IMG/VR virus record: IMGVR_UViG_3300049740_000674
Location: 1 to 23,974 of that record
DNA length: 23,974 bases
Strand: one strand, 5' to 3'
Source of the DNA: a virus
Each line of letters starts with the position of its first letter. Within the stretch, counting starts at the first letter, position 1. Positions 6,634 through 13,586 of the stretch are shown here, piece by piece. Below the pieces are notes generated by a model, which was given only the letters and a program-made list of their open reading frames with translations, ran no database searches and had not been told where the DNA came from. Position numbers and translations under genes: made by a program.

Positions 6634-7146
6634 TTAGTGGTGGTCGTCTACTGCTTCGTTCTCTAGCAGTCTAAGTATCTCTGCCTCAATTGTTGAGGAG
6701 TCTCTCTGTTCTTTTACTTCGACTGTATCGGTAAACATACCGGAAGTTTTTCCTAGTAGTTCCAAAGACCTAACCCTACTTGCCGGAGTAGAATCCTCGT
6801 TGTCTCCTCGACTCTCTGCATGGAGCCTTTCTAAAACATAACTCCTCGTACGGATAGAGGAAGCTACTACTCCCTCCTCTCGCTTACTGATAGCACGTTG
6901 TATGCTTAGGGAAATCTTAGGGTTAGCTAACATCTTGGAAGCTTCTACATTTACCCATTTAGGAATGGAGCCGTTCTTGTTTAACTTCACGTCATAGACT
7001 TTTGCGTATGCTTCTTTGTAAGTTGTTTTACCTTTTACTATCTCTTCAATGAAGGCTCTCTGTTTAGGAGTAAGGTCTGTTTCTGGTTTCGGTTTCGTGC
7101 CGACTATTTTTAGGTTGGGTTTTTTCTCATCACTCATACAAAACAT
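6634..7146 (-). CDS. Terminase small subunit (TerS)
   Basis: 170 residues. After a Lys-rich lead of about 25 residues comes LTPKQRAFIEEIVKGKTTYKEAYAKVY, the N-terminal helix-turn-helix of the Terminase_2/TerS type, which recognises the packaging site on DNA. Next are VEASKMLANPKISLSIQRAI, typical of TerS after the HTH, and an amphipathic helical oligomerisation segment (about 100-150). It would form the ring that selects phage DNA for TerL. Start could be ATG 7146 or, three codons in, ATG 7137 (MSDEKK); neither has a Shine-Dalgarno. The 7146 start lies inside one of the dispersed palindromes, whose binding or folding could affect its expression. Confidence 0.85.
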   Translation of the reverse strand: MFCMSDEKKPNLKIVGTKPKPETDLTPKQRAFIEEIVKGKTTYKEAYAKVYDVKLNKNGSIPKWVNVEASKMLANPKISLSIQRAISKREEGVVASSIRTRSYVLERLHAESRGDNEDSTPASRVRSLELLGKTSGMFTDTVEVKEQRDSSTIEAEILRLLENEAVDDHH

Positions 7147-7167
7147 TTTACCGGTAAACCTTTTCCC
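7138..7167. repeat. Dispersed palindrome copy 1 (centre ACCGGT), over the terS start
   Basis: Divergent member of the nine-copy family; on the minus strand it reads GGGAAAAGGTTTACCGGT then AAAATG. The inner 12 bases TTTACCGGTAAA are a perfect palindrome, and one arm (GAAAAGGTTT) matches copy 8. It covers the terS initiation codon. Confidence 0.6.
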
Positions 7168-7220
7168 ACGTAATGACCACAGACTGATAGCTAAATAGAG
7201 GTATATTTAAGGGTACATTT

Positions 7221-7229
7221 TGCTATAAT
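7221..7229 (+). promoter_or_regulatory. Extended -10 promoter for the rightward MoxR-VWA transcript
   Basis: TGCTATAAT is a perfect extended -10 box (TGnTATAAT); no good -35 is visible 17 bases upstream, as is usual for extended -10 promoters. A perfect 7-bp inverted repeat, GGGTACA (7211-7217) and TGTACCC (7254-7260), brackets the box and predicted start site, so an operator or a 5' hairpin is possible. The predicted start is near 7236, in the divergent space between terS and the rightward genes. Confidence 0.65.
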
Positions 7230-7235
7230 CCTCTT

Positions 7236-7328
7236 ATGGCAATGACGTTTTTCTGTACCCAAAAATCAAGCAAGGACTTGAGGCTCAAACTCGTCATAAT
7301 TTTTGAGGAGGTGTCTATAGAAAAGTAG
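7236..7328 (+). CDS. Possible 30-residue leaderless leader peptide
   Basis: An ATG stands exactly six bases after the -10 box, so it would be at or next to the 5' end of the RNA, as at 14003 and 17122. The frame encodes 30 residues (MAMTFFCTQK...) with a hydrophobic centre LKLVIIF, ends at TAG and has no ribosome binding site. It overlaps the structured leader RNA. It may be a regulatory leader peptide or chance; the only support is the spacing shared with two longer genes. Confidence 0.2.
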   Translation: MAMTFFCTQKSSKDLRLKLVIIFEEVSIEK

Positions 7329-7654
7329 TTTTAATTTTTATCGGTAGTCTATTCGTACAGACTCCGTGGAGGTCGTCCTAGTATTCTTTATTACCCAAAA
7401 ACTAGGTCAGGTCGTGATGATAAATTGGTGGAACAATTTTAGCCGTACCTCAAACACCCTTACCTAAATGCTATATGGAGTATTGAAACAGATACGAAAG
7501 CAGTAGGTCTCGAAAGCAAAGTGACAGCAATTGCTCCAACGAGACCGAGTCTTGATGTTAAATAAACAGACCCTAAATAATTTTCTTTGCGACAGAAATT
7601 CCTAACCAAATTATTTGAGAGGGATAGCGTTTTGTTATCCCTTTCGAATTTCTT
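7236..7654 (+). ncRNA. Structured untranslated leader RNA upstream of the MoxR operon
   Basis: About 420 bases between the promoter and the first hammerhead, with no credible long gene and many local stems: TCAAG/CTTGA near 7268-7282, AGTCT/AGACT (7346-7363), CCTAGT/ACTAGG (7377-7406), AAATTG/CAATTT (7422-7439), GGTCTCG/CGAGACC (7506-7546) with inner AGCAA/TTGCT (7515-7535), and a 10-bp stem GAGAGGGATA/TATCCCTTTC (7617-7645). I do not recognise it as a known riboswitch, intron, RNase P, GOLLD or ROOL RNA. It may be a cis-acting leader or an independent RNA released by the hammerhead cut at 7660. Confidence 0.55.
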
Positions 7655-7703
7655 ACTGTCACTAGGTGTGTGCCTAGTCTGAGGAAGCGAAAGCAGAAAC
7701 AGT
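7655..7703 (+). ncRNA. Hammerhead ribozyme, type III (copy A)
   Basis: All hammerhead parts are present in order: stem III strand ACTG (7655-7658), GTC cleavage triplet with the cut predicted after 7660, stem I ACTAGG/CCTAGT (7661-7666 with 7673-7678) closing loop TGTGTG, core CTGAGGA (7679-7685), short stem II GC/GC with a GAAA tetraloop (7687-7694), core GAAA (7696-7699) and stem III strand CAGT (7700-7703). The 5' half (CTGTCAC), the TGTG loop, GTCTGA and the closing GAAACAG match the satellite tobacco ringspot virus hammerhead layout. Stem II is unusually short, with an A-A juxtaposition at its base. The cut would leave a 5' end about 70 bases before the ATG at 7732. Confidence 0.82.
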
Positions 7704-7731
7704 TAACTTAATATATTTCTTAGGAGGAAAT

Positions 7732-7857
7732 ATGAAAATACAAATGACAGACGTTCATGTCTCTAAACTGAACAGACGTAGTAGAAAGAAACCTATTGCG
7801 AAATTTAAATTTGAGAAGTTCGACAATGAAATTCTCGTATCTAAGGAGGTGTACTAA
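7732..7857 (+). CDS. Small basic protein encoded before MoxR
   Basis: 41 residues (MKIQMTDVHV... to SKEVY), basic in the first half (KLNRRSRKK), then alternating Lys/Phe (KFKFEKF). No Cys, no membrane segment. It has a strong ribosome binding site, TAGGAGG, 6 bases before the ATG, and its TAA overlaps the MoxR ATG (TAATG), with the MoxR Shine-Dalgarno AAGGAGG inside its last codons. Real translation and coupling to MoxR are therefore likely. It is the first gene after hammerhead A. Function unknown; a nucleic-acid-binding or adaptor peptide for the ATPase is conceivable. Confidence 0.7.
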   Translation: MKIQMTDVHVSKLNRRSRKKPIAKFKFEKFDNEILVSKEVY

Positions 7858-8963
7858 TGAGTGCCAAAGATAAAACTTATACTCCTTCGGAAGCTATCGA
7901 AGGTATGTTGGAAATTACTCCAATGGTTAGTGCAGACGGAACGGACTTAGTTCCTTGCTTACTCGGTGGAGTAGGTATCGGTAAGTCCTCTCTAGTCGAA
8001 CAATATGCTAAGACTCTCGCTAATGGTCGAAAGCTTGTCTACGGAAAAATAAATCCGAGCGAGGACGAGTTCTCTCTCATTGACTTGAGGATTGCAGACT
8101 TGGAGCCGGAGGACACGAGAGGTGTTCCGGTGGTCGACATGGTCGAAGGAGAGCCGGTACAAAGACTCGCTCAATTACAAAACTTGCCTATCTCAGGAAG
8201 TGGAGTTTTGTTTCTTGACGAGTTCGCACAAGCTACTCCGGAAATGCAAAAGATTGCCGGACGTGGTGTGCGTGAAAGGATTATTGGCGAAACAAAAATC
8301 TCTGACGGATTTAAAATTGTTTTAGCCGGTAATAGACAGACCGATAGAGCCGGAGCAAATTCTATCCTCTCTCACTTGTTAGACAGAGTGATAGAAATGC
8401 ACGTGGAAGGCGATACTAATTCTTGGTTAGCGTGGGCAACGAAGAATGATGTACACCCTCTGATAACTTCGTTCATAAACTATCAGCCTCAGTTCTTAAA
8501 TCACTTTGACCCTAAGTTGAAAGAGAGTCAGAGTTCCTCAAGGACTTGGTCAATGGCTAGTCCGATAGTTCAAAGATTTGAGAACGATTTGACTAACTCA
8601 ATGTTCGGAAAGCTTATGAGTGGTTGTATCGGCTCAGAGAGTACGGCTGAGTTCTTAACGTTCGTTAACCTCATGCAAAATGTTCCGTCCCTTGACGACA
8701 TTGTGAGTGGCGAGGACGTGGAAGTTCCGGAAGGAGTTGGTCTTCAATATGCGACTTGCTGTGGACTCGTTAAGGTCTTGTCTGAGTGCAAGGACAAGGA
8801 CTTGGTTTCCTATTGGGAAAATGCTCTCAAGTATGTTGAGAAGTTCCCAACGGCTGAGTTCGGTATCTACTTCGTTCGCTCTTGTGTTGGAGCAAGACCG
8901 GAGTTGGAGAAGAGCAAGGCGTTCGGACAATTCCGTGTGGATAATCAAAACCTAATTCTGTAG
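7857..8963 (+). CDS. MoxR-type AAA+ ATPase
   Basis: 368 residues. The ATPase core is clear: Walker A GGVGIGKS (37-44), Walker B GVLFLDEF (116-123) followed by AQATPEMQKI, sensor 1 in VLAGNRQTDRAG (N159) and a candidate arginine finger in LSHLLDRVIE (R177), the order of MoxR/RavA-like AAA+ proteins. The C-terminal half is helical lid without a recognisable added domain. MoxR ATPases work as hexameric chaperone-like remodelers with a VWA partner; the metallopeptidase-VWA gene two genes downstream is the obvious partner. Cytoplasmic. Translationally coupled to the 41-residue gene upstream. The transcript downstream carries a long palindrome and hammerhead B before the next gene. Confidence 0.9.
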   Translation: MSAKDKTYTPSEAIEGMLEITPMVSADGTDLVPCLLGGVGIGKSSLVEQYAKTLANGRKLVYGKINPSEDEFSLIDLRIADLEPEDTRGVPVVDMVEGEPVQRLAQLQNLPISGSGVLFLDEFAQATPEMQKIAGRGVRERIIGETKISDGFKIVLAGNRQTDRAGANSILSHLLDRVIEMHVEGDTNSWLAWATKNDVHPLITSFINYQPQFLNHFDPKLKESQSSSRTWSMASPIVQRFENDLTNSMFGKLMSGCIGSESTAEFLTFVNLMQNVPSLDDIVSGEDVEVPEGVGLQYATCCGLVKVLSECKDKDLVSYWENALKYVEKFPTAEFGIYFVRSCVGARPELEKSKAFGQFRVDNQNLIL

Positions 8964-8983
8964 GTCTTGGTTTTTTTGGAAGT

Positions 8984-9018
8984 GAGAGAAATATTTTACT
9001 AGTAAGATATTTTCTCTC
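8984..9018. repeat. Dispersed palindrome copy 2 (centre ACTAGT)
   Basis: The arms GAGAGAAA and TTTCTCTC flank TTTACTAGTAAG. As RNA the hairpin can extend outward to 8978-9024 with a G-U wobble and one mismatch, giving about 20 paired bases per arm. No U-run follows it. It begins 20 bases after the MoxR stop and ends just before hammerhead B, so one intergenic space holds both. Confidence 0.85.
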
Positions 9019-9025
9019 GCTGCCA

Positions 9026-9083
9026 TAAACTGATAATCGAGTGTGACTCGGTCTGACGATTACGAGAGTATGAAATCAGTTTA
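9026..9083 (+). ncRNA. Hammerhead ribozyme, type III (copy B)
   Basis: Stem III TAAACTGA/TCAGTTTA (9026-9033 with 9076-9083), TA before the predicted cut after 9035, stem I ATCGAG/CTCGGT (9036-9041 with 9047-9052) around loop TGTGA, core CTGACGA (9053-9059), stem II TAC/GTA with a GAGA tetraloop, core GAAA (9072-9075). Relative to copies A and C the stem I and II pairs change in a compensatory way (CGAG/CTCG, CAAG/CTTG, CTAGG/CCTAG), while loop TGTG, CTGA and GAAA stay fixed. The cleavage triplet is ATA, allowed by the NUH rule. A GGAGG site and ATG follow at 9102-9114. Confidence 0.85.
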
Positions 9084-9111
9084 TTAAATTTTTTATTTCA
9101 TGGAGGTATAA

Positions 9112-10068
9112 ATGAATAAAAATAAAACGTTAGAGTCTGTCTTTTCAGACTCGTTTGTTAAGGTGGTCTTTCGCAGAGGTTTACCCTCTGACCAAAAGGT
9201 CAATCCTAGGAGCAAGAAGGAGTTAGCAAAGTTGTTTGACTCTGACCCTTCTATGCACACAGCTTCGGACTATTTGTTTCCGGAGAAAATCAATTCCTAT
9301 TTTAGGAAATACTTTGTAGCGTTTGAGACGACTGTGTTTAAGCCGTTGTCTTATCCTTGGTCGGACGGAGATACTAACTCTTCACAATGGAGAATTATTC
9401 CTAACGACAAAGTGACTCAGTTAGAGAAACTCTACAAGCAACACAAGGCAATGTTTGAAAAAGCAGTTGACTCGTTTTGTTCAAATTATGATTGGCATAT
9501 TGAAAATGCTAAGAAGAAATTGGGCGAAGCTTTCGACATCAATAACTATGATGATGTAGAAACTTTCAGAGCGAAGTGCAAATTTGAAATACAGTTTGGA
9601 GCCTTCGAGTCTGTGTCATTTTCTAATGACGCTAGAGTTCAATTGTCAGCCGAGCAACGTTCAATGATTGAGAGTCAAGTTGCGAGTAATTTCAAAGATA
9701 CTCACAACATGATTGCCAAAGAGCAAATAGCCGGACTGACTGAGGCTCTAGACAATGTCTTAGTTGCAATGGAAAAGGAAGGCAACAAAGGGTCGTTCTT
9801 TAAACGTGCAGTCTTTGATAACCTCAAGGCTAAAGTTGAAAATGCTCAGAGTATCAATGACAAGCTTCTTAACAGTAAGAAATTGTCCGGTGTGATATCT
9901 CAAGTGACTGCGACCTTAACCAAAGTATCAAACGGCATAGAGTCTCTCAAAGGCAAGGACGACCTTGCGGTTGAAAACCGAGAGTCTATGAAAGAAGAAA
10001 TAACTACAGCGAAGAAAAGTCTCAACGACTCTATCTTCGGTGGACTAATGGGAGGCGACAATGAGTGA
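9112..10068 (+). CDS. Coiled-coil protein of the MoxR-VWA module
   Basis: 318 residues without a recognised catalytic motif. The N-terminal 110 residues are mixed (KVVFRRGLPSDQ, ASDYLFPEKINSYFRKYF, a Trp-containing SYPWSDGD). From about 115 on it is almost entirely helical and charged, with long heptad-like stretches around 115-170 and 190-310, ending GGLMGGDNE. Lying between a MoxR ATPase and a VWA/metallopeptidase gene, and overlapping the latter by eight bases, it resembles the DUF3150-type third member of phage MoxR-VWA clusters, but I could not confirm the family. A structural adaptor for the ATPase complex is the likely role. Good GGAGG site; its mRNA would begin at hammerhead B. Confidence 0.8.
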   Translation: MNKNKTLESVFSDSFVKVVFRRGLPSDQKVNPRSKKELAKLFDSDPSMHTASDYLFPEKINSYFRKYFVAFETTVFKPLSYPWSDGDTNSSQWRIIPNDKVTQLEKLYKQHKAMFEKAVDSFCSNYDWHIENAKKKLGEAFDINNYDDVETFRAKCKFEIQFGAFESVSFSNDARVQLSAEQRSMIESQVASNFKDTHNMIAKEQIAGLTEALDNVLVAMEKEGNKGSFFKRAVFDNLKAKVENAQSINDKLLNSKKLSGVISQVTATLTKVSNGIESLKGKDDLAVENRESMKEEITTAKKSLNDSIFGGLMGGDNE

Positions 10069-11503
10069 GTACAACGTTGCACAAAGACGACCTGAGTATA
10101 TGGGTCAAACGGCAGAGCAAGTCATAACAAAAGCTAAGTCACAGTTAATGGACTCAGCTACCGGCATGACTTCTATTCTCTTAGGACTTGACCTCATAGA
10201 GGACGAGTCCATTGGGACAATGGCTACGGACGGCAAGAGTATTATTTACTCTCCGGATTTCACTTTGTCTATGAAGTTCGACCAAATAAAAGGAGTCTTA
10301 ATTCACGAGGCTCTTCACGTTGTTTGGGGACACCATATACGAAGGTGCGAAGGTGGTCTTGAAAGACACCCTAAGCTTTGGAACATTGCTACTGACTATG
10401 CAATCAATTCATACATTGTGTATGACTTGAATTTAGATTTACCGGAAGGTGGTCTACTTGATAGGAAGTATCAGTCATGGTCGGCTAATGCAATCTATGA
10501 CTTCTTGTATGCGAATGACGAGGAGTTGGAGAAGGCAAAGTCTCAGGTTGAGAAAGGACTAGGTCAAGAGTCGGACGAGCAAGGCGAGTCTGAGCAAGAC
10601 GAGTCTGATTCAGGCGAGGGCGAAGGTCAGGGTCAGGGTCAGGGCGAAAGTCAGGACGAGGACGAAGCCGAAGGACAAATGTCCGGACAAGGTGGAGTCA
10701 ATCTTGACGACTTACCTCAGCCGGTTGGTGGTGTCATTGACATGAAGGGCGAAGAAGGACAAGACCTCACTCCTCAAGAAGTACGAGAGGAGCAGACGAG
10801 ACTTGACCAACAAGTTCTTATGGCAGAGAAACTTGAAGGAATGAAAGGAGACTCAGGCAACGTTGACTACCTTGGAGGCAGAGCCGGAGAAATCAAAAGA
10901 CCTCAGGTTGCATGGAATGATTACTTGAGAGAGATACTAACCTCTCGTAAATCCAACAAGAGGTCTTACGCTCGACTCAATAAAAAGTATCAACACTCCG
11001 GACTAATCTTGCCGTCAAAGAAACGTGAGAACGAAATAAAAAACGTTGTCATTCTCAATGACGTATCAGGCAGTACCGAATGGTGTCGTGATGAATTCAT
11101 TACAGAAACCATGACGTTGCTTGAGGAGTTTGCAGTTGAGAAACTGTGGGTCGGAAGGTATGCCTCTAACCATTTTAGAAATGAGCAAGGAGAATACTTC
11201 GACTTGTTCGACACGACTCAAGGAGATTGTATGCCGGACAAAGATACGTTCCCTTGTCATGGCTCCGGTGGTACTTATGGTGTTGCCGGTTTCAATGCTT
11301 TCCTTTCTAAGCTTGAAGAGAGAGACGAGGTCGACTTGCTTATTCACTTCTCGGACGGAGAGGACGACTTTGAAATGGAAGAGTTGGACGAGCCTATGCC
11401 GGACAATCTACCGGTCATTCACGTCTTTACTGTTGAAGGTAGCTACGGCTTCTCTAATCCAAAAAAGGATATGCCTTTTGGCGAGAGGGTGTTCATCAAG
11501 TGA
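10061..11503 (+). CDS. Metallopeptidase-like plus VWA-like protein (DUF2201-type)
   Basis: 480 residues in three parts. The N-terminal metallopeptidase-like domain has IHEALHVVWGHH (81-92), an HExxH motif with further His, followed by LWNIATDYAINSYI, the second helix of the family. A very acidic linker (about 155-235) contains Glu/Ser/Gly-Gln repeats (GEGQGQGQGE). The C-terminal VWA-like domain has the MIDAS start NDVSGSTE (333-340) and HFSDGEDDFE near 415. This matches the DUF2201 plan of a putative metallopeptidase fused to a VWA-like domain, which travels with MoxR ATPases; VWA proteins act as substrate adaptors for MoxR. Activity of the zinc site is not established. No signal peptide. Starts in an ATGAGTGA overlap with the previous gene. 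Confidence 0.9.
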   Translation: MSEYNVAQRRPEYMGQTAEQVITKAKSQLMDSATGMTSILLGLDLIEDESIGTMATDGKSIIYSPDFTLSMKFDQIKGVLIHEALHVVWGHHIRRCEGGLERHPKLWNIATDYAINSYIVYDLNLDLPEGGLLDRKYQSWSANAIYDFLYANDEELEKAKSQVEKGLGQESDEQGESEQDESDSGEGEGQGQGQGESQDEDEAEGQMSGQGGVNLDDLPQPVGGVIDMKGEEGQDLTPQEVREEQTRLDQQVLMAEKLEGMKGDSGNVDYLGGRAGEIKRPQVAWNDYLREILTSRKSNKRSYARLNKKYQHSGLILPSKKRENEIKNVVILNDVSGSTEWCRDEFITETMTLLEEFAVEKLWVGRYASNHFRNEQGEYFDLFDTTQGDCMPDKDTFPCHGSGGTYGVAGFNAFLSKLEERDEVDLLIHFSDGEDDFEMEELDEPMPDNLPVIHVFTVEGSYGFSNPKKDMPFGERVFIK

Positions 11504-11512
11504 ACACCTTTT
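11488..11512 (+). terminator. Hairpin with short U-run at the end of the VWA gene
   Basis: GGTGTTCA pairs perfectly with TGAACACC around a 5-base loop, followed by TTTTCC. The stem overlaps the stop codon. With only four U residues it is probably a partial terminator or a 3' protecting hairpin, and could let the transcript continue to palindrome copy 3 and hammerhead C. Confidence 0.5.
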
Positions 11513-11562
11513 CCCCGAAAGTTTTACACCATGTGTAACAGTTTGTGTTTCGTGACCCTTGT

Positions 11563-11594
11563 AGAGAAAGTATTTACTAGTAAATATTTTCTCT
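11563..11594. repeat. Dispersed palindrome copy 3 (centre ACTAGT), longest hairpin
   Basis: The best copy: AGAGAAAGTATTTACT on one arm and AGTAAATATTTTCTCT on the other, with a single mismatch. It is nested inside a second perfect inverted repeat, CGTGACC (11551-11557) and GGTCACG (11601-11607), so as RNA the whole 11551-11607 segment can fold into one long hairpin. A smaller repeat, TTACAC/GTGTAA (11524-11538), lies just upstream. Hammerhead C starts 25 bases downstream. Confidence 0.88.
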
Positions 11595-11631
11595 AATGTT
11601 GGTCACGGGACGCAAATTTTCACTTCTAAAA

Positions 11632-11689
11632 AAACTGATAATCAAGTGTGTGCTTGGTCTGAATGATTACAAAAGTATGAAATCAGTTT
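11632..11689 (+). ncRNA. Hammerhead ribozyme motif, type III (copy C, extra core base)
   Basis: Stem III AAACTGA/TCAGTTT (11632-11638 with 11683-11689), TA before a predicted cut after 11640, stem I ATCAAG/CTTGGT (11641-11646 with 11653-11658) around loop TGTGTG, core CTGAATGA (11659-11666), stem II TAC/GTA with AAAA loop, core GAAA (11679-11682). The architecture and compensatory stem changes match copies A and B. The first core segment has one base more than the CUGANGA consensus, so cleavage may be reduced or lost. Lies 28 bases before the ATG at 11717. Confidence 0.7.
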
Positions 11690-11716
11690 ATTAACTTAAT
11701 CTTTATAGGAGGTACT

Positions 11717-12445
11717 ATGGAAGATTTAAAACTACAGTTGTGGTTAGCCAAAGACGGAATGTTTACAGAGGTCTGTAAGCATGACGACCACACAAAATGG
11801 GACGTTTCTTTTTTAAGAAGTGTCAGACATCAATTAGACATGAAGGGTAACTTGTCCGAGAAACAATGGACTATGGTTGCGAAGATACGAGACAAAGTTC
11901 TTGCTCCTCCAAAACCTAAAGAGACTATTCAAGTCAATGAGATAAGCAAAGTGTTGGAGTTCCTAAACAGAGTTCCTAACTTTTCATCTATCAGAGTTGC
12001 TATGTCAGTTCCAATTGCCGGAGGTAGTTCCGGAAATGCTGATTGGTTTCTGAAGATGTACGTTGCTACTGACAAGTCAAAGTTTGAAGGTCAGTTGCAG
12101 TTGCTCGTCAGTTGTGACCCTGACTTTCAATATGGCAAAGAGTATCTTGGTAGGGTGGACTTGAACGGATTGTTCTTTCCTCACTTTAGATACTCTAATG
12201 TTCAGTTGGACTTTGAGAAACAAGCAATCAAAGACGAAGCAGTCAATACTCTAAATGCAATTGCCCTTGACCCTGAGAAAGTTGTCCGAGAGTTCGGACA
12301 GTTGACCGGTCAATGTTCTTTCTGCAAGAGGAGATTGTCTGACGATATCTCGAAAGCGTACGGATATGGAAAGCATTGTGCTAAGAAGTATCAGTTAACG
12401 TATCCGACTAAAAAACAATTTGAAATGCAAGGAGGTGTAGCATGA
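11717..12445 (+). CDS. Hypothetical protein with C-terminal DUF6011-like zinc motif
   Basis: 242 residues. The N-terminal 190 are soluble and unrecognised, with helical segments near 30-60 and a mixed beta region (SIRVAMSVPIAGGSSGNADWFLKMYVA). The C-terminal part has GQCSFCKRRLSDDISKAYGYGKHCAKKY, the DUF6011-type signature: CxxC, a Leu/Ser-Asp turn, GYGxxC near the end, probably a small zinc-binding treble-clef-like element. Proteins with this tail are common in phage genomes and may bind nucleic acid; the exact role is unknown. Strong ribosome binding site (TAGGAGG), and hammerhead C precedes it. Ends in an ATGA overlap with the next gene. Confidence 0.82.
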   Translation: MEDLKLQLWLAKDGMFTEVCKHDDHTKWDVSFLRSVRHQLDMKGNLSEKQWTMVAKIRDKVLAPPKPKETIQVNEISKVLEFLNRVPNFSSIRVAMSVPIAGGSSGNADWFLKMYVATDKSKFEGQLQLLVSCDPDFQYGKEYLGRVDLNGLFFPHFRYSNVQLDFEKQAIKDEAVNTLNAIALDPEKVVREFGQLTGQCSFCKRRLSDDISKAYGYGKHCAKKYQLTYPTKKQFEMQGGVA

Positions 12446-12747
12446 CAGAAGTTAAAGAAAAGATGTTATATATAGATGAACGTATAGTTCTGAAAGATAT
12501 AGTCAACGACTTGGTATCAGCAGTTGATATCATTCAGAGGTTAAGTAAACAATTGTCTTATCGAGTAGACAATGTCCAAAGACTAGACGCTATAAGTCTA
12601 AGTGAGGTTGAGTCTATTCGAGACTATCTTGACTCTATTCTTAGGTTGTCCGTGGAAAGCATTGACGACTTTCAACAAGGAGCCGACCATTTATCAGACT
12701 TGGTTGTTGCTATCAAAGACAACAGAAAGTCAGGAGGTGTAGCATGA
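12442..12747 (+). CDS. Hypothetical helical protein
   Basis: 101 residues, charged and almost wholly helical (RIVLKDIVNDLVSAVDIIQRLSK, then LSEVESIRDYLDSILRL), so probably a small coiled-coil or helical-bundle protein; no motif recognised. Its ATG overlaps the previous stop, with GGAGG seven bases upstream. It ends in GGVA like the previous protein, because both genes share the same junction sequence GGAGGTGTAGCATGA that supplies the next gene's Shine-Dalgarno. Confidence 0.75.
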   Translation: MTEVKEKMLYIDERIVLKDIVNDLVSAVDIIQRLSKQLSYRVDNVQRLDAISLSEVESIRDYLDSILRLSVESIDDFQQGADHLSDLVVAIKDNRKSGGVA

Positions 12748-12980
12748 GTAAATACTTTAAAGAAAGAATGACTTTTGCTAAGGAGTTGCACTCTGCAAGG
12801 AAGGTTGAAGTTCTGCTCACACTTCCGGTGGAAGAGGCTCTAGCAATAGCAACAATTCTTGAGGACTTAATCAAGTGTGCTAGTGATGAAAAAGTGATAG
12901 AGATTTGCAATCAAGCTTTGGATTCATTCGACAAAGGAAAAGTAAAAGTCTCGGAGGTGGAGTATGAAAAGACTACTTAG
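12744..12980 (+). CDS. Hypothetical helical protein
   Basis: 78 residues, helical and soluble (LHSARKVEVLLTLPVEEALAIATILEDLIKCA). No recognised family. Starts in an ATGA overlap after GGAGGTGTAGC and overlaps the next gene by 17 bases, so it is embedded in a translationally coupled run. May work with its two neighbours in the hammerhead C transcript. Confidence 0.72.
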   Translation: MSKYFKERMTFAKELHSARKVEVLLTLPVEEALAIATILEDLIKCASDEKVIEICNQALDSFDKGKVKVSEVEYEKTT

Positions 12981-13533
12981 ATTTAAGTATTACCCTCGTA
13001 GTGGGTTGAATGTCAGAGCCGGTATTATCCATGGCGAAAGCTTTGCCGAGTTAATTCCTCAGGTTTGTGAAGTCATGTGGTCAGAGTCAATGCCTTATGG
13101 GAAATACTTTGTGTTCAAGGACGACTTCAGAAGTGGAGAGTTTGAAATCGCTAGTGAGGTTTCAAAGTTCACGTCTCGTTCCGATAAACCTATGTCTTTC
13201 AGAATGGTCTTTCGTCACTTCGCAATGATAAGACAAGCCGGTTGTTATGACTCTGACCTTTCTATTGCACAGATAGACAGGAAGTATCACAAGTTCTTGA
13301 ATAATAAAAAGAACAAAAAAGATATTGAGTTGTTTCGCTATAGCAATACTCACTTCACAATAACTCATTCTCCTATTGCTGAGTTGTTTCTAAAGTGGAT
13401 TGACAAGTTTGGAACGGAAGAAGATTTGAAAGTTCTAGATAATTTTTTACATCATAGCAATATGTATACTCCGACTGAACAGTTTGAGAAAAGTATTAGA
13501 TATAGATTAAAAAATATAAAACAGTCTGCTTAA
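12964..13533 (+). CDS. Hypothetical protein, last gene of the rightward operon
   Basis: 189 residues, basic, with aromatic-rich segments (FKYYPRSGLNVRAGIIHG, YGKYFVFKDDF) and a Lys-rich stretch in the middle (KFLNNKKNKKD). No catalytic motif, no membrane segment, no Cys cluster. Start ATG has GGAGGTGG five bases upstream and lies inside the previous gene. Followed by a strong intrinsic terminator. Function unknown. Confidence 0.75.
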   Translation: MKRLLRFKYYPRSGLNVRAGIIHGESFAELIPQVCEVMWSESMPYGKYFVFKDDFRSGEFEIASEVSKFTSRSDKPMSFRMVFRHFAMIRQAGCYDSDLSIAQIDRKYHKFLNNKKNKKDIELFRYSNTHFTITHSPIAELFLKWIDKFGTEEDLKVLDNFLHHSNMYTPTEQFEKSIRYRLKNIKQSA

Positions 13534-13539
13534 AATTAG

Positions 13540-13586
13540 CCGAGGCTATGTGGTATTAATTTACTGCATAGTCTCGGTTTTTTTTT
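13540..13586 (+). terminator. Intrinsic terminator of the MoxR-VWA region
   Basis: CCGAGGCTATG (13540-13550) pairs over 11 bases (one G-U) with CATAGTCTCGG (13567-13577), followed directly by nine T residues. This is the strongest rightward terminator in the window and ends the operon that begins at 7732. Confidence 0.9.

Follow-up and report, generated by a model that had tools for sequence, protein, structure and literature searches.

The window analysed here is the whole of a 23,974-nucleotide stretch of DNA from an uncultured virus of bacteria (positions 1 to 23,974 of IMG/VR record IMGVR_UViG_3300049740_000674), in which three type III hammerhead ribozyme (HHR) motifs lie on the + strand at 7655-7703, 9025-9084 and 11632-11689, within an operon encoding a MoxR-type ATPase, a DUF3150-like protein and a VWA protein. 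The motifs were located by sequence reading and a descriptor scan. An earlier prediction made from the sequence alone (hereafter the original prediction) had placed three copies here with cuts after 7660, 9035 and 11640, and all three were recovered, copy 2 now extending from 9025 to 9084. The features of the region, with open reading frames (ORFs), Shine-Dalgarno (SD) sequences and scores from covariance model R1 (described below), are as follows.

6634-7146, − strand: terminase-small-subunit ORF, divergent from the operon.
7147-7654, + strand: leader, from the divergent terminase-small-subunit gene to copy 1; no listed ORF of at least 60 amino acids (aa); stable, terminator-like hairpin at 7613-7649.
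7655-7703, + strand: hammerhead copy 1; triplet GUC, predicted cut after 7660, core CUGAGGA, A.A at 10.1/11.1, 2-bp stem II, GAAA loop; R1 54.4 bits.
7732-7857, + strand: small ORF of 41 aa, with SD AGGAGG in front; no PHROG match.
7857-8963, + strand: MoxR-type AAA+ ATPase (Pfam AAA_5; phrog_1297, ATPase).
8984-9018, + strand: palindromic hairpin 5′ of copy 2.
9025-9084, + strand: hammerhead copy 2; triplet AUA, predicted cut after 9035, core CUGACGA, U.U at 10.1/11.1; R1 37.4 bits.
9112-10068, + strand: DUF3150-like protein (Pfam 22.2 bits, under the cut-off of 24.9).
10061-11503, + strand: VWA / DUF2201_N putative metallopeptidase-domain protein (Pfam PF13203, 7e-32; phrog_1314).
11540-11618, + strand: long hairpin 5′ of copy 3; three pairs with double changes between relatives.
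11632-11689, + strand: hammerhead copy 3; triplet AUA, predicted cut after 11640, core CUGAAUGA, U.U at 10.1/11.1; R1 47.3 bits.
11717-13533, + strand: DUF6011 protein and three small genes (12442-12747, 12744-12980, 12964-13533).
13538-13586, + strand: intrinsic-terminator-like hairpin of 18 pairs (13538-13579) and T run after the last gene; likely transcript end.

Each copy forms a three-way junction with hairpin stems I and II and an open stem III, as judged from minimum-free-energy folds, the descriptor and covariation. The hammerhead fold is the minimum-free-energy fold of every copy, with z scores of -0.18, -1.96 and -1.73, and folding energy is therefore not decisive by itself. When the whole window was scanned, the descriptor matched the three copies only, and it gave a single match in 4.79 Mb of Markov-1 random sequence read on both strands. 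The NUH triplet (H not G) is present throughout, H17 being C in copy 1 (GUC) and A in copies 2 and 3 (AUA). The CUGANGA and GAAA core strands, with A15.1-U16.1, are found in copies 1 and 2. The CTGA(N)GA core of the original prediction therefore holds for these two but not for copy 3, whose core has one inserted base (CUGAAUGA) and is otherwise complete. Because Perreault et al. (2011; PMC3088659) treat an insertion after A6 as a rare, low-activity variant, copy 3 was filed as a core variant of the type III hammerhead and not as a consensus member. The usual G10.1-C11.1 pair at the base of stem II is absent in 3/3 copies, leaving two to three true stem II pairs. For U.U we take this to deviate from the consensus without excluding membership, as U10.1-U11.1 is reported active, with more cleavage than any other mispair (PMC3088659); the available part of that article holds no such report for A.A. 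Copies 2 and 3 are 86% alike. Folds of the reverse strand as hammerheads were rejected, the core letters being missing. In all three copies the 3′ end of the HHR lies 27-28 nt, and the predicted cut site 71-76 nt, before a start codon, with the SD outside the ribozyme; the 28-76 bases before a ribosome binding site and gene given by the original prediction resolve into these two distances.

Rfam did not call these motifs. No match was found at the gathering score in the whole window, no hammerhead at E≤10 over 7400-11900, and none in narrow scans, which covered copies 1 and 2. A type III family search had been proposed with the original prediction, a score below threshold counting against it, and for Rfam this is formally the outcome. 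However, the RF00008 gathering score is a curated threshold and not a mechanistic feature, and it says little here because three phage HHRs from another locus (L045), all with CUGAUGA and G-C, score 46.9, 46.9 and 39.4 bits against a threshold of 48.5. Copy 2 of a close relative (L004), also with CUGAUGA and G-C, reached 15.4 bits in the Rfam scan, and 17 HHR-bearing loci yielded zero hammerheads at the gathering score. These results suggest that many phage hammerheads are hidden by the Rfam threshold. Covariance model R1 was trained on 34 HHRs taken from viral loci in which the operon was not detected: local tblastn of the examined stretch of each contig gave no MoxR, VWA, DUF3150, TerL or portal homologue, though L032 shares a distant primase-helicase. 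These loci were found by a pattern of 21 fixed letters present in copy 1 and distant relatives, and as the pattern letters come partly from copy 1, R1 is not wholly independent of it; copies 2 and 3 do not match the pattern. On the window R1 scored copies 1, 2 and 3 at 54.4, 37.4 and 47.3 bits, with the next match at 10.5 bits (R1 E-values are rough, the calibration being short).

Covariation was measured in two ungapped or equal-length sets: A5, in which 34 HHRs of loci not belonging to the VWA lineage are aligned without gaps, and A10, 27 distinct HHRs from VWA-lineage loci, both restricted to members of equal length so that longer-looped HHRs were left out. In A5, 89.8% of cells were paired (65.3% when shuffled) and 145 showed double changes (40 when shuffled), with a covariation score of 0.677 against at most 0.10 for slid structures. 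A10 gave 89.1% paired (58.7% shuffled), 152 double-change cells (45.8 shuffled) and a score of 0.851 against at most 0.123. Double changes were found in all three stems, and in A10 they affect 6/6 pairs of stem I, which is 100% paired. The counts of pairs and of pair types, taken alone, exceed the shuffles weakly, being reached by 46 and 32 of 500 shuffles for A5 and by 13 and 72 for A10. Although the stems vary across the alignments, the catalytic letters CUGA..GA and GAA do not. As regards a possible tertiary contact between loops I and II, loop letters at columns 15, 16, 19 and 39, 41 are also invariant in A5, loop I being largely preset by the search pattern. A lack of conserved pairing in homologous phages, which the original prediction had named as evidence against it, is thus clearly not what we see, since all three stems covary between relatives.

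Position 10.1/11.1 is never a standard pair in A10. Among the 127 unique R1 matches that could be parsed (30/157 could not) it was U.U in 48, G-C in 45, A.A in 24, preceded by an extra U before the stem in 8, and G-U and U.C once each; A-U, U-A and C-G did not occur in these 127. The descriptor set of the pattern scan, in which this position was left free, gave U.U 41, G-C 35, A.A 20, extra U 7 and G-U 1 (n=104). Two other hammerheads (L190:608-662 and L229:480-534) have A15.1-U16.1 swapped to U15.1-A16.1, a slower but active variant (PMC3088659).

In eight contigs whose MoxR is 93-100% identical, the copies are present at every place that the contig covers in full. Copy 1 of L004-L006 also has the core CUGAAUGA, one base longer than CUGA(N)GA. 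Between two sub-groups of these close relatives, copy 2 changes from CUGACGA to CUGAUGA, from U.U to G-C at 10.1/11.1 and from U-G to C-G in stem I, the G-C with CUGAUGA being found in L004-L007. Copy 3 remains unchanged in relatives while the long hairpin upstream varies, with three double-change pairs but two broken pairs in 2/6 sequences.

For a wider view, VWA alignment A8, which included nine VWA sequences of pattern-found loci, was used to take the best 80 of at least 523 relatives; the RNA pattern had already picked up 20/80 of these contigs but not the other 60, and several of the 80 loci are near-copies of one another. All presence rates come from this protein-selected set; in pattern-found loci presence is by construction. 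At E≤0.01 R1 found 178 HHRs, and 73/80 loci carry at least one: 15 loci have one, 27 have two, 21 three, 6 four, 2 five and 2 six, and 58/80 have two or more co-oriented HHRs. Every match (178/178) lies on the strand of the VWA gene. An HHR is present in 53 of the 60 contigs that the RNA pattern had missed, and 38 of these 60 have two or more, presence by VWA identity being 1/1 at 80% or above, 4/4 at 40-79%, 26/27 at 35-39%, 21/24 at 30-34% and 1/4 below 30%; the VWA proteins of HHR loci are mostly 30-97% identical to that of the window. The places are repeated too. An HHR follows VWA within 450 nt in 50/66 loci (mostly by 100-135 nt), precedes the VWA start by 850-1350 nt, about where the DUF3150 gene begins, in 56/77, and lies more than 2 kb before VWA in 33/67. 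Three loci (L194, L199, L220) have five or six R1 matches each within 5-7 kb, several of them low-scoring with longer inserts.

Longer records place the ribozymes with the operon. At E≤0.1 there were three R1 matches in a 58,982-base record (L008), three plus a 20.8-bit match elsewhere in a 58,166-base record (L007), and three plus a 22-bit match after VWA in a 58,929-base record (L016). Five further records (G018-G022, 52-58 kb) have all their R1 matches at E≤0.01 in operon-region stretches of 2.7-4.9 kb. Across the eight records of 52-59 kb (G001-G003, G018-G022), the operon region contains the HHR matches that exceed 21 bits, and the ribozymes of these records therefore belong to the operon and not to the genome at large. 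At E≤0.01, 2/14 whole records had no R1 match (L225 and L218), both among the HHR-free VWA relatives counted below.

The distance to the next gene is narrow well beyond the window. After identical HHR sequences were merged (253 to 157 in the pattern set, 178 to 118 in the protein-selected set), an ORF starting with ATG was found 12-50 nt downstream of 106/118 unique HHRs in the protein-selected set and of 130/157 in the pattern set, compared with 5/157 on the antisense strand and 470/3140 random places. This ATG-only count replaced one that required an SD, in which 91/157 HHRs lay within 60 nt of a start and phages without SD were missed. For 38 of the 66 HHRs without a nearby SD-preceded start, an ORF nevertheless begins 16-28 nt downstream, in most cases with an A/T-rich leader, which we take to be as expected of Bacteroidota hosts. 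Folding is stronger in the 78 nt upstream of HHRs than in the remaining intergenic gaps: mean z is -2.56 for the former (n=115) and -1.15 for the latter (n=247; Mann-Whitney p 5e-10). HHRs closer than 90 nt to the beginning of their locus, or with N in the upstream sequence, were excluded from this comparison. For window copies 1, 2 and 3 the upstream z is -5.0, -4.8 and -3.7. A dispersed palindrome, TTAC(C/T)(A/G)GTAA, occurs in the window at 7148, 8996, 11574, 14775, 16406, 22151 and 22987, within or between genes and often inside a longer palindrome. In 652 kb of VWA loci there are 95 copies against about 5 expected by base composition, and only 14/117 unique HHRs have one within 110 nt upstream; it looks like a lineage-wide operator or regulatory site.

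We also looked for the motif in other sequences. Six viral loci with no MoxR or VWA homologue detected (L043, L053, L068, L085, L091, L094) have 3-5 hammerheads, mostly 16-28 nt before ATGs without SD. A pattern scan of bacterial contigs and metagenome-assembled genomes (MAGs) matched 11 stretches, and the descriptor upheld hammerheads in 6/11; these six MAG contigs (L135, L136, L138, L139, L143, L144) have hammerheads sharing loop I, which are possibly phage-derived. R1 did not uphold the hammerheads of L137 and L140, with only 150 first-look candidates scored per genome. Among named phages BLAST matched only Xanthomonas phage RiverRider (two records, E 0.1), with a 33-nt hammerhead-like match at about 17808 of NC_048703.1 (L155), in the gap before the tRNA cluster. 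Two further short BLAST matches for copy 1 were discarded.

As to the proteins, the label VWA for 10061-11503 was taken from the original prediction. Its family phrog_1314 carries the label HNH endonuclease, yet the protein matches the Pfam DUF2201_N putative metallopeptidase domain at 7e-32, for which reason the HNH label is probably misleading for the window protein. None of the four operon proteins searched had a PADLOC match. In AAA+ chaperone systems, MoxR proteins are paired with VWA proteins.

Clustered phage hammerheads have been described before. Perreault et al. (2011) reported prophages in which several hammerheads border single genes or short blocks of genes, proposed processing into operon- or gene-length mRNAs, and observed in vitro cleavage of three arrays, one of which also cleaved in E. 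coli (PMC3088659). The idea of gene-length mRNAs made by clustered phage HHRs is therefore not new, and the statement in the original prediction that multi-ribozyme processing of a phage operon had not been described was too strong in general. Those prophage clusters resemble the window, with its three copies, in having several co-oriented HHRs that flank phage genes or blocks, and U10.1-U11.1, two-pair stem II and an insertion after A6 are already recorded there. They differ in that gene identities are said not to be constant there (PMC3088659), whereas here one MoxR-DUF3150-VWA operon recurs over many viral contigs, with repeated places, upstream hairpins and recurrent A.A. The available part of that article makes no mention that we found of recurrent A.A at 10.1/11.1, and no published link between HHRs and one MoxR/VWA operon was found among the papers listed, as judged by titles and the openings of abstracts. 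Compared with the type III hammerhead of RF00008, the present motifs share the three helices, open stem III, CUGANGA and GAAA strands, NUH site and hairpin stems I and II, but 10.1/11.1 is often U.U or A.A and not G-C, some cores read CUGAAUGA, loop I is often UGUGUG with a four-base loop II, and the window copies have no Rfam hammerhead score. The theta ribozymes of gut phages (PMC10879173) are likewise self-cleaving ribozymes in phage RNA processing; however, they are HDV-like and, by the title of that work, tRNA-linked, and not hammerheads before protein genes.

On the sequence comparisons above, these are real, conserved hammerheads, and both their type III identity and the segmentation of the MoxR-DUF3150-VWA operon, as originally predicted, appear strongly supported, the interpretation as a whole partly so. 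Our best reading, which we consider probable, is that cutting by the HHRs turns a single phage transcript into a leader RNA and three mRNAs. Transcription would start in the leader at 7147-7650 and end near 13580. The three type III hammerheads would fold during transcription and cut after 7660, 9035 and 11640, giving a separate leader RNA and messages for the small ORF with MoxR, for DUF3150 with VWA, and for the DUF6011 group. Each new message would open, 71-76 nt ahead of its start codon, with a 5′-hydroxyl on a base that pairs in stem I, while each upstream piece would end in a 2′,3′-cyclic phosphate shortly behind a stable hairpin. 5′-hydroxyl ends paired in stem I are poor substrates for decay starting from a 5′ monophosphate. 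The likely benefit would be that stability and dosage of the three gene sets are uncoupled via defined, protected ends, with no host RNases needed, and that MoxR, DUF3150-VWA and the DUF6011 group would get separate lifetimes. The leader of about 500 nt at 7147-7654 lies between divergent gene runs, and the cut-off leader product could be a small RNA itself.

The motif, its covariation, its conserved place and strand and the hairpins upstream are observed directly; from them we infer cleavage, a single transcript and a benefit of end protection. Several points weigh against this reading. Neither promoter-like sites (10 versus 11.7 in shuffles) nor terminator-like sites (7 versus 5.0) are in excess in the region, and the terminator-like hairpin at 7613-7649 stands directly before copy 1, so the single transcript is assumed. 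The extra base of copy 3 falls at the site, after A6, at which a tested insertion left little activity, and the A.A of copy 1 may be slow because U.U supports the most cleavage of any mispair (PMC3088659). RF00008 does not score the window copies as hammerheads. Not all relatives carry the motif: 7/80 VWA relatives have no R1 match, L009/L010 (MoxR 28%) no descriptor match, and at E≤0.1 R1 found nothing in the TerL relatives HTVC027P, HTVC023P, 023Pt_psg01 and DSL-LC04 (TerL 53-58% identical), in the distant MoxR relatives CRP-7, S-TIM5, pVa5, G, RG-2014, Ka4 and VEc25, or in MIF8, a distant VWA relative. Owing to the near-copies, the 80 loci are not 80 independent cases. Lastly, a structure-only or protein-binding role would produce equal covariation.

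Four other explanations were weighed. The motifs could cleave so that loss of the upstream RNA controls how the next gene is translated or decays, as a conditional switch responding, for example, to temperature, Mg2+ or a protein and not as constitutive operon cutting. Cores weakened by A.A or U.U at 10.1/11.1, or by an inserted A, are found repeatedly without repair and would suit slow or regulated cleavage, and the narrow spacing to the start codon fits too, but in none of the three window copies does the ribozyme include the SD, and we regard such a switch as unlikely. It is nonetheless the least improbable of the four. That pairs of HHRs release segments which are later ligated to circular RNAs or joined messages is agreeable with the two or more co-oriented HHRs in 58/80 VWA loci and with the HHR pairs that accompany circular RNAs in retrozymes and viroid-like RNAs (PMC6155905, available part). 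However, 10/10 phage records gave no match to RtcB ligase, in a search confined to RtcB in those records, and spliced or circular products were not detectable according to Perreault et al. (PMC3088659); ligation is thus very unlikely in our estimation.

The copies might instead be relics or mobile hammerheads of no present function, as the 86% likeness of copies 2 and 3 and the core deviations could indicate. This sits badly with double changes in all three stems and with positions that recur, always on one strand, among loci whose VWA proteins share mostly 30-97% identity with that of the window, and we give it hardly any weight. Equally hard to credit are non-cleaving, hammerhead-like structures that serve only as stable 5′ leaders or protein sites: cleavage is argued from comparison of sequences, and Rfam scores are low or absent, but CUGA..GA and GAA are fixed while the stems change, and a pure leader would not need those letters.

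Processing of one transcript by its own hammerheads is therefore the reading we keep. More broadly, and more tentatively, as something possible that we would stop short of calling probable, there may be a large phage lineage that uses ribozymes as standing mRNA maturation. The messages of one operon would each carry a ribozyme-made, hairpin-buried 5′-hydroxyl and a hairpin-guarded 3′ end, amounting to a processing and stability code independent of host RNases, with narrow start-codon spacing kept over deep protein divergence and an A.A/U.U class of hammerhead. The nearest named relatives point to a marine lineage, and the equal leader position in phages without SD suggests a general phage strategy. 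A 2017 review listed the biological role of prokaryotic hammerheads as an open question (PMC6155905, available part). Conserved ribozymes at repeated places of one operon, with natural variants of core and stem strength, would make that role directly testable.

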